Assembly: GCA_016188575.1 (NCBI GenBank)
Contig: JACPHN010000068.1
Location: 62,001-126,000, forward strand
Origin: Candidatus Schekmanbacteria bacterium
GTDB lineage: Bacteria; CSSED10-310; JACPHN01
Length of the DNA stretch: 64,000 nt
Direction: 5' to 3'
The notes beneath the pieces were generated by a model. The model searched no databases, was not told the DNA's origin, and worked only from the letters and a program-made list of their open reading frames with translations. This document shows, in pieces, positions 5,021-56,400 of the stretch (its first letter is position 1; each line of letters begins with the position of its first letter). The position numbers and the translations under genes were made by a program.

Positions 5021-5049
5021 CGGATTCCGTACTCGCTTGGGCAATACTT

Positions 5050-5258
5050 GGCGTCGGCGGAATGTCCGGTTTCGTCCATTACACTTCTTCCCGTCGCAGG
5101 CTTCGGTGAGGAAGGGCGCGATTCATCGCGCCCCAATGCCGGGCCGGGGATCATCGGGCCGAGAATGACCCGCCCGAATTACCGGCCGCGACGACCGGGC
5201 GCCATGAATCGCGCCCCTGCGTGGCGGCCTCAGGTGTAAAGCACATTCGGCCGACGCC
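5050..5258. mobile_element. Inverted-repeat element A, copy 1 (MITE-like)
   Basis: A 209-bp element with terminal inverted repeats: the left end is GGCGTCGGCGGAATGTCC, and the right end reversed is GGCGTCGGCCGAATGTGC, each followed inward by TTACAC or TTTACAC. It is flanked by CAATACTT (5042-5049) and CAATATTT (5259-5266), an 8-bp target duplication with one mismatch. The interior is palindromic (the two halves contain ATTCATCGCGCCC and ATGAATCGCGCCC) and has no ORF. Copy 2 is at 31663-31812. Confidence 0.8.
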
Positions 5259-5270
5259 CAATATTTTACC

Positions 5271-24656: not shown

Positions 24657-25037
24657 CGCGCGCTAACCTACCATCCCGGACCATGCGGTGCAATCGCCGA
24701 AGGTCGATAAGGCGGCGACGCAGTCACATTTGGTCACGGGCCGGAGAGCGCATGCCCGAGGAGGACTTCCACCCCTCCGACCACGTCCGCTCGCAGGCGC
24801 ACGATGCGCGGACCTGAGGTCCGCTCTTCCGAGGCGTCCGAAGAGTGCGGGCCGGCGGCCCGCGGTCCCACGTGTCGCACCGCCTTCAACTTCCGGCACG
24901 TGTAGACCGCATTCTGCCGGCGCCAGAAAATATCTGCGCTCCCGCCGGGTGTGTCGTCCCTGTTGGCGAAGAACGTGGTGCTCGGGCTGGCAAACGCGGC
25001 GCCCATGGGGTCTGTGTCCATTTCGCTCGTGGCGGGG
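24657..25037. other. Intergenic stretch, 381 bp
   Basis: No convincing gene. Hairpins are visible at about 24810-24850 (GGTCCGCTCTTCCGAGGCG...CGAAGAG) and a GGGCCGGCGGCCCGC palindrome at 24850-24865. A minus-strand ORF of 105 codons (24734-25051) has no family signature and overlaps the end of the M64 gene; I do not call it. Confidence 0.4.
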
Positions 25038-31429: not shown

Positions 31430-31662
31430 GACGTGAAGGCCTCGCGATAGGGCGGCATATGCGCAGCCAGCCGCGATGCGGCGCGGCCGTGGCAGGCACT
31501 GTACGGTTCCGCGGGCGCGGTTGCAAGCGGGGGGGAGGGGCCGACGCCGTCCAGCCGGTGGATACAGGTCGAGGCGATCGCGCGCAGGCCTCAGGAATCA
31601 CTGCGACTTGGCGGATTATCGCCAATTATGTGCGCGAGCCTCGCCGCGTTCCGCAGTTTTCC

Positions 31663-31812
31663 GGCGTCGGCCGAATGTCGGGTGATGCTCTCTTACAACT
31701 GTCGCTGGCGCCCCCTCCCTGCCTCCCCCCGCAAGCGGGGGGAGGTGAGGTGGGGGGCAGCATGCCACGCGCTTTGCGCTCGCCAGGGTGTAAAGGACAT
31801 TCGGCCGACGCC
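31663..31812. mobile_element. Inverted-repeat element A, copy 2 (MITE-like)
   Basis: 150 bp, ends GGCGTCGGCCGAATGTC on both strands, each with TTACA/TTTACAC inside, flanked by perfect 8-bp direct repeats AGTTTTCC (31655-31662 and 31813-31820). The centre is a CCTCCCCCCGC/GCGGGGGGAGG hairpin. It sits between the divergently transcribed TrkA-channel and giant secreted-protein genes; the rest of this 518-bp gap shows no gene. Confidence 0.85.
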
Positions 31813-31947
31813 AGTTTTCCCATCCACCGCCACGCCGCCTCGCACGGAATGCTCCAGGGAGCCTGTCTCGCTCGTGGTCCAAGACTTGCATTGGTATTTT
31901 CGGACTGCCGAAATTCACCGTTCATCGTCAACCTGCGGAGTACACGC

Positions 31948-54579: not shown

Positions 54580-56400
54580 CTAGCGGAACAGCACCTCGTC
54601 CAGACAGCTCGTGTCCCCGGACCGTATGGACTTGCCTGCCGCGACCGTGGCGGGCAGAACCTGAGCGCAGTAGAAGCGCACGTTGGCCACCTTCCCGCGA
54701 TAAAAGCCCAGATCATCGCCGGCCGCACCCGCGGCCATGGCTTCTTGCGCCACGACGGCCTGCCGCAGCGCCTGCATGCCCAGCTCGACACCACCGAACT
54801 GATTCAGAAACGGCGTGGCATGGACCATGGCCGCGGCAATTTCACCCTTCATCGCGAGCCCACCGAGGTGCATCGCCGACGCGCCCAGATTGTCCCTGGC
54901 CTTTTCGAGCTCGCTGACCTCGGTTTCCAGCCCCCCGAGCGCCCTGGCCTTGGAGAGCAGCTCGGTACAGCCCCCGAGCCATGCCCGCAGCAGAGCGCCG
55001 CCGCCCTGCTGCAGCTTGCGGCCGAGCAGATCCATGGCCTGAATGCCGTTGGTGCCTTCGTATATGGAAGCGATCTTGGCGTCGCGAACGTACTGCTCGA
55101 CGGGGAACTCCTGCATGTACCCATAGCCCCCGTAGGTCTGCAGCGCCAGCACCGTGCTCTCGAAGCCGCGGTCGGAGCAGTACGCCTTGCAAATCGGGGT
55201 CAGCAGCTCAGCGATTCCGAGCTGCTGCTCGGCGACTGCCTTGTCGGCTGCGCTCTCGGCGACGTCGAAGCGCAGGGCCGTGCTGTAGAGCAGCGAGCGC
55301 ATGGCCTCGACGTGCACCTTCTGCCACATCAGCATGCGGCGGACGTCCGGGTGGCGCACGATGGGCACACGTTCGGCGGTCGCGTCGCGCATTTTCTCGA
55401 CGGGAACGCCCTGGATGCGCTCCTTGGCATAGGCCACCGCGCTATTGTAGGCGGCCGCCGAGGCCGCGAGCCCCTGGATGCCGACCCCCAGCCGCGCTTC
55501 GTTCATCATCTGAAACATGATCCTCATCCCGTCGAATTCATTTCCGAGCAGGTAGCCGAGGCACCTCTTGCCGTCGCCGAGGACCAGCGTGCAGGTGGCG
55601 CTGCCGTGGATTCCCATCTTCTCTTCGACGCGCGTCACAAACGCGCCATTACGCTCGCCAAGCGCGCCCGAACCGTCGAAAAGGAACTTGGGCACCATGA
55701 AGATGGACAGTCCCTTGGTCCCGGGAGCGGCCGCGGGGGTGCGCGCGAGCACGAGGTGAATGATGTTCTCCGTCAGGTCGTGGTCGCCGGCGGTGATGAA
55801 GACCTTCTCGCCCTCCAGCTCGTAGACGCCGGCCGCGGCGGTGGGCAAGGCGCGCGCGCGGTTGTCGCCGACCGAGGATCCCGCGCCGGCTTCGGTCAAG
55901 CACATGGTACCGCCCCAGTCGCCGCCGTACAGCTTCTCCACCGCCGCCCGGCGCAGGTGCTCGGGCGCGAACTGAGCGAGAATATTCGCGGCGCCGCGCG
56001 CCAGCCCAACGTAGTTCTCGAACGCGACGCTGGCGCTGCTGAGCATTTCACCCACGGCCACGTTCAACGCGTACGGGAGCCCCATGCCGCCGAAATCCTC
56101 ATCTGCCGCGAGCCCGACCCAGCCCCCTTCGGCCAGAGTATCCCACGCCTTCTTGTAGCCGGGAGGAGTGGTGACGTTTCCGGCGCCGTCGAACCGGCAG
56201 CCGGCGCGGTCGCCAGGAGCATTGATGGGCGCGATCACTTCGCGCGCGATCTGCTCGGCTCCGGTCAGGATCGAGTCAACCGTCTCGGCGTCGAGGTGAG
56301 CGTGCCGTGGGTGCATCCGCAAAGTCTCCACGATGCGAAGTTGCTCGTTCAGCACGAACCGAATGTCTCTGAGGTCGACGGAATAGTCTGTGGCACTCAT
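54580..56400 (-). CDS. Acyl-CoA dehydrogenase, long form (DmdC/FadE5-like)
   Basis: 606 residues, the length of the 3-methylmercaptopropionyl-CoA dehydrogenase/FadE5-type branch with an extra C-terminal domain. FAD enzyme forming the alpha-beta double bond of an acyl-CoA. N-terminal helices, middle domain with GTMCLTEAGAGSSVGDNRAR and KVFITAGDHDL, C-terminal AVAYAKERIQGVP, QTYGGYGYMQEFPVEQYVRD and IASIYEGTNGIQAMDLLGRK (Glu region of the active site). ATG 56400 follows GCGGAG. It stands between glmM and ddl but 120 bp from glmM and is likely its own transcript. The chain-length preference cannot be read from sequence. Confidence 0.93.
   Translation of the reverse strand: MSATDYSVDLRDIRFVLNEQLRIVETLRMHPRHAHLDAETVDSILTGAEQIAREVIAPINAPGDRAGCRFDGAGNVTTPPGYKKAWDTLAEGGWVGLAADEDFGGMGLPYALNVAVGEMLSSASVAFENYVGLARGAANILAQFAPEHLRRAAVEKLYGGDWGGTMCLTEAGAGSSVGDNRARALPTAAAGVYELEGEKVFITAGDHDLTENIIHLVLARTPAAAPGTKGLSIFMVPKFLFDGSGALGERNGAFVTRVEEKMGIHGSATCTLVLGDGKRCLGYLLGNEFDGMRIMFQMMNEARLGVGIQGLAASAAAYNSAVAYAKERIQGVPVEKMRDATAERVPIVRHPDVRRMLMWQKVHVEAMRSLLYSTALRFDVAESAADKAVAEQQLGIAELLTPICKAYCSDRGFESTVLALQTYGGYGYMQEFPVEQYVRDAKIASIYEGTNGIQAMDLLGRKLQQGGGALLRAWLGGCTELLSKARALGGLETEVSELEKARDNLGASAMHLGGLAMKGEIAAAMVHATPFLNQFGGVELGMQALRQAVVAQEAMAAGAAGDDLGFYRGKVANVRFYCAQVLPATVAAGKSIRSGDTSCLDEVLFR

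Follow-up and report, generated by a model that had tools for sequence, protein, structure and literature searches.

Relation to described miniature elements

MITEs, as reviewed in PMC10969869, have conserved ends and occur in size variants; their target duplications become less distinct with age, and one small element may be nested in another. We analysed a 64,000-nt stretch of DNA (hereafter, the window) that holds two copies of a non-coding element, and compared this element with the bacterial MITEs described in that source (Chunjie, QMITE1/2, Correia and MITEAba12). All of them are shorter than 500 bp, have inverted ends, occur in many copies, are flanked by target duplications in only part of these copies, have stem-loop potential and come in size variants including partial copies. 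The element reported here differs from them, as far as they are described there, in its GC-rich ends, in the presence of two end types whose box spacing differs by about one helical turn, in its several unrelated interiors, in hairpin cassettes located at fixed sites and in that its parent was not found. Pneumococcal BOX, RUP and SPRITE clusters, as described in PMC10969869, likewise consist of small elements inserted into one another, whereas in the present element the inner cassettes recur at the same internal point and the filled form appears to have multiplied. Overall, we are highly confident that the element represents a high-copy MITE family, with members of about 43 to 212 bp that are non-coding, have asymmetric bipartite ends and would be moved by a transposase supplied in trans.

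Group II introns that insert at hairpins provide a further parallel, in that RF00029 is present inside the hairpin cassettes of three copies; here, however, the intron is a guest and explains neither the 16-bp ends nor the 8-bp duplication. The cassettes also resemble REP/BIME-like palindromes, being GC-rich, often paired and found on their own both in the window and elsewhere in the genome, which, moreover, encodes eight Y1 transposase domains. REPs, however, are not known to have 8-bp duplications or long bipartite ends, both of which characterize the present element. The possibility that the whole element is a REP/BIME, spread by Y1/RAYT and thus devoid of a target duplication, was rejected because of the 8-bp duplications.

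Two copies in the window

The two copies are located at 5050–5258 and 31663–31812, in equal orientation (minus strand, L to R), and are bounded by 16-bp inverted ends, GGCGTCGGC(C/G)GAATGT. Copy 1 (209 bp, type-2 interior), delineated from the sequence, exact end matches, folding and alignment, has its R end at 5050 and its L end at 5258. The respective 16-bp terminal inverted repeats, identified by exact pattern match at 5050–5065 (R-type, plus strand) and 5243–5258 (L-type, minus strand), read GGCGTCGGCGGAATGT and GGCGTCGGCCGAATGT on these strands. The inner box of the R-type end, ATTACAC, is found at element position 29 (5078–5084, plus strand) and that of the L-type end, TTTACAC, at element position 19 (5234–5240, minus strand), as assigned from the sequence and from box positions, which for the R-type box were taken over 99 ends. 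The interior includes the palindrome of hairpin cassette a (GGGCGCGATTCATCGCGCCC; 5114–5133, plus strand) and a second palindrome of the same cassette (5197–5216, plus strand), both recognized from sequence and alignment. On the outside, the left target-site duplication CAATACTT (5042–5049, plus strand) and the right one, CAATATTT (5259–5266, plus strand), are identical at 7/8 bases. The single-stranded DNA of copy 1 plus flanks has a folding energy of −66.9 kcal/mol, compared with a shuffled mean of −46.8 kcal/mol (z = −6.15).

Copy 2 (150 bp), defined by sequence and alignment, corresponds to an 88-bp type-1 form with an internal insert of ~62 bp. Both of its ends are perfect, and so is its 8-bp duplication, AGTTTTCC, present at 31655–31662 and 31813–31820 (plus strand, 8/8). 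Judged by alignment with type-1 copies, some of them empty and others filled, the insert extends over 31704–31765 (minus strand), these limits being approximate, and hairpin cassette b, CCTCCCCCCGC..GCGGGGGGAGG, lies within it at about 31722. A search of the window for ends with ≤3 mismatches returned seven matches, the four without mismatches being exactly the paired ends of copies 1 and 2; the other three have 3 mismatches each, and shuffled sequences gave a mean of 3.28 matches at this threshold. Both copies are flanked by long ORFs. Apart from the two copies, the window segment 38063–38206 is 79% similar (gapped alignment) to the joined flanks of an element elsewhere in the genome (L019), indicating that a related dispersed repeat is present in the window.

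Copy number and bipartite ends

The host genome (9.2 Mb in a fragmented assembly of 275 contigs, 93.8% complete) contains 109 occurrences of the exact 16-mer end (59 + 50), and the reversed-pattern control gave none (0 + 0). Furthermore, the L-type pattern with one mismatch allowed has 58 matches in the genome and its control none. Clustering of the listed matches resolved at least 141 distinct places, comprising copies and fragments, on 99 contigs; this is a lower bound, as 100 of the 109 exact ends were entered, two DNA searches contributed their first 40 candidates each and, for the 208-bp search, only matches reaching a terminus were included. The elements range in size from 43 bp (L053) to 212 bp and contain no transposase gene. 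Contigs often end inside them, which is the usual behaviour of repeats when an assembly is fragmented, and the family accounts for part of this fragmentation.

Analysis of 99 distinct exact ends revealed a TTTACAC-like box whose best position is 19 in 42 ends and 29/30 in 44; it is found elsewhere in five and is missing in eight. In shuffled inner sequences, such a box occurred anywhere in 1003 of 4950 trials. Two end types can thus be defined by the position of TTTACAC, L with the box at 19 and R with the box at 29/30, that is, about one helical turn further in. All 68 typed pairs consist of one L and one R end; in the other 13 of the 81 pairs an end could not be typed. This arrangement suggests that the transposase may read the terminus and the box together, and with a difference of ten bases in spacing the box would face the same side of the helix in both end types.

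Target duplication and unoccupied sites

The flanks of 94 paired elements were compared with shuffled controls. Identity at ≥7/8 positions was found in 37 elements (shuffled mean 0.78, maximum 6) and at ≥6/8 in 46 (shuffled mean 3.28). Perfect duplications of 8 bp flank 17 elements (shuffled 0.22), and not a single perfect one was detected at lengths 4–7 or 9–12. Similarly, 21 of 55 pairs picked by one exact end have flanks at ≥7/8 (shuffled mean 0.53, maximum 5), as do 7 of 20 loci picked by similarity to the 88-bp interior rather than by exact ends, a sample in which two mis-anchored loci (L141 and L142, with 9–10 end mismatches) are still counted. Flanks below 6/8 were observed in 48 of the 94 paired elements, some of which have perfect ends. 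Among the 57 pairs with the best-kept ends (≤2 mismatches in both ends together), 32 are at ≥6/8 and 25 below, implying that a missing duplication is not only a matter of age. We also considered that copies without a duplication might be recombinants of one another; this explanation was not supported, as flank exchange among sampled copies showed no excess over the control (7/8 identity in 5 of 930 comparisons and also in 5 for the control). Given that the 8-bp signal in the other copies greatly exceeds the shuffled control and is confined to length 8, the duplication-less copies do not refute transposition. The eight bases outside the 99 exact ends display a symmetric, AT-centred preference, SRAWWTYS. 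The element inserts into short AT-rich sites, copying 8 target bases.

The joined flanks of 81 elements were searched against 0.45 Mb of genome DNA (overlaps included), which uncovered three clear paralogous unoccupied sites in the same genome, each with one copy of the target. The flanks of L014 and the unoccupied site L091 are identical at 183 of 200 positions without gaps; the corresponding values are 159/198 for L108 and L114 and 118/129 for L080 and L130. This count disregards the matches of L048, L053/L119, L082 and L022/L004 to themselves, a match between elements (L076 with L033/L112) and those of L064, L019 and L128, which were weak or partial. In addition, L009 and L011 carry the same 127-bp element without any sequence difference, but with different perfect duplications and unrelated flanks. 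Together with the unoccupied paralogous sites, this pair directly shows insertion. The preliminary description, prepared from the window sequence, had reported two copies of a mobile non-coding element with differing 8-bp target duplications and a conserved TTACAC inside the ends. The two duplications are confirmed at 7/8 and 8/8, mobility is borne out by the duplications genome-wide and the paralogous unoccupied sites, and the inner motif proved to be real and fixed in position. Copies lacking flanking duplications, which the preliminary description had regarded as contrary evidence, do occur, namely the 48 below 6/8, beside the 37 elements at ≥7/8.

Proposed transposition mechanism and candidate parents

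As no transposase with these ends was found, we infer the engine: a DDE-type enzyme probably acts in trans and would bind the boxes. Such a transposase most likely binds the 16-bp terminus together with the second box, TTTACAC, and would pair one L with one R end before cutting the element out or copying it. The element would then be joined to a symmetric, AT-centred target site whose strands are cut with an 8-bp stagger, and gap repair would give rise to the 8-bp duplication. The ends, the spacing rule, the target rule, the empty sites and the nested guests, all from a lineage of which few relatives are known, make up a clean data set of many copies that allows the footprint of the transposase to be predicted.

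As for the source of the enzyme, we consider it rather likely that the parent element has been lost, or else sits on a plasmid or in repeat contigs that were left unbinned, and that it belongs to a family beyond those profiled (e.g. relatives of IS1, IS5 or IS66, or an undescribed DDE family). Contig ends often fall inside the elements and, since the assembly is interrupted at repeats, a parent present in several copies may have ended up among the unbinned contigs. Moreover, the profiled families are absent from the genome or not flanked by the ends. Profiles of ISL3 (DDE_Tnp_ISL3, PF01610) and IS6 (DDE_Tnp_IS240, PF13610) have no matches in the host genome and match 4 and 5 of 14 control genomes, respectively; the 10 genes with an IS4/IS5-type DDE_Tnp_1 domain (PF01609) have no paired ends within about 1.5 kb, and none of the three rve genes (PF00665) is bounded by paired ends. 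No autonomous element with the same ends was found in about 0.5 Mb of DNA from this fragmented assembly or at the tested transposases, and no parent was found among the frames listed for the ORFs within 3 kb inward of 15 ends. The sequences inward of 15 more L-type ends look like those of miniature or truncated elements. Nothing speaks directly against a lost or unbinned parent, for which the argument is one from absence.

Several longer arrangements came to light in these searches. Screening of 283 kb for long end-to-end pairs with duplications yielded one pair, spanning 4.6 kb (L118), which was dismissed as a parent and read as chance because of its 4 + 1 end mismatches and 6/8 flanks. A 743-bp pair (L156) has 1 + 5 end mismatches and 6/8 flanks. 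An IS5-like ORF inward of L058 may represent a nested insertion.

Elements of the IS256 (Mutator-like) group have a subterminal box and 8-bp AT-centred targets, features that the TTTACAC box and the target sites of the present element resemble. Nevertheless, a parent from this group appears unlikely: Transposase_mut (PF00872) is absent from the genome, though the same search matches 6 of 14 control genomes. An 8-bp duplication and GGC ends are in turn typical of IS1595, and on the strength of both features the preliminary description had proposed a parent from the IS1595 or a similar group. It is, however, very doubtful that the elements are degenerate IS1595-type elements moved by an IS1595 transposase, since PF12762 has no match in the genome (1 of 14 control genomes matches), none of the tested transposases is flanked by the ends, and the ends do not occur outside this genome in the collections searched, bar one apparent chance match. 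Of the checks put forward in the preliminary description, the search for end pairs in the genome yielded the 94 paired elements, and that for a transposase gene bounded by the same ends found none among the transposases tested. Finally, it is extremely improbable that the ends belong to a conserved palindrome, either regulatory, a possibility named in the preliminary description, or a terminator, that was multiplied through duplication of adjacent DNA rather than by transposition: the elements do fold strongly and each copy in the window has long ORFs on both sides, but this explanation is refuted by duplications of exactly 8 bp at independent sites, and the unoccupied paralogous sites with one target copy as well as the unrelated flanks of the otherwise identical L009 and L011 also argue against it.

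Distribution outside the host genome

The exact end was found in none of 40 relatives, and a 209-base query matched none of seven other genomes of the phylum. A 20-base-specific end pattern was detected in no IMG/VR contig; in a scan of GTDB species it was found in one contig, from Planctomycetota. The latter match lies within a sulfatase-like reading frame, and we read it as chance. The 225-base sequence of the element with its flanks matched no plasmid and no phage record. The 16-mer end sequence was not found in the literature searched, and broader literature searches, judged by title, returned nothing resembling the element. Consistent with the earlier impression that the element is undescribed, the sequence of the family is new within the scope of these searches, MITEs as a kind being already known.

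Interiors, hairpin cassettes and group II introns

An alignment of 22 hand-picked elements distinguishes at least four interior types, all of which have the same pair of ends in common. The empty form of type 1 measures 88 bp, and an insert of ~62 bp is present at one common point in window copy 2, L012 and L157. Type-2 elements, among them window copy 1, are 113 to 212 bp long. The empty form of type 3 (L152 and L064) measures 116 bp, with one cassette in L155 and L158 and another in L072 at the same point, and type 4 is 127 bp long. The shortest element, L053, is a 43-bp remnant with flanks identical at 7/8 positions. Thus, extra hairpin cassettes occupy a fixed internal site in at least two interior types. 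A different insertion, beginning with CCCACGAGTTGCGCA, is found at the same position inside the type-2 elements L026, L051, L057 and L061, as if the filled element had then multiplied.

Palindromes of the cassette kinds are also present elsewhere in the window, at 56227, 21766 and 24847, although for the kind at 24847 shuffled windows yield one match on average. At C29:11055–11330 (L166), three overlapping matches to the inner cassette of the 208-bp form stand in a row without element ends. The eight Y1 (IS200/RAYT-like) transposase domains of the genome were located at L171–L178, of which only L171 has one of five tested palindromes nearby.

A group II intron (RF00029) was detected inside the element in 3 of 10 loci searched; an Rfam search of the window gave no match at the gathering score. 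In L033, L077 and L079 (contigs C55, C194 and C207, respectively), RF00029 lies inside the hairpin cassette, and the contigs break there. Small hairpins and group II introns are thus seen hitch-hiking on a miniature transposon. Within the MITE family, the interiors are interchangeable, with hairpin cassettes at a fixed internal position in at least two of the four or more types; cassette-filled forms then very probably multiplied together with the element that carries them, and group II introns very probably entered some of the cassettes later. More tentatively, the family might represent an undescribed transposition system in which only the bipartite L and R ends, a helical turn apart in spacing, are recognized and the interior is free, so that the non-autonomous elements would serve as carriers, acquiring hairpin cassettes at a single internal site and distributing them, along with their group II introns, around the 9-Mb genome; we regard this broader proposal as improbable. 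At another locus, L069 (C164:41670–42670), an element end lies among fragmentary reading frames, which seem to represent a reverse transcriptase and the remnants of two transposases.
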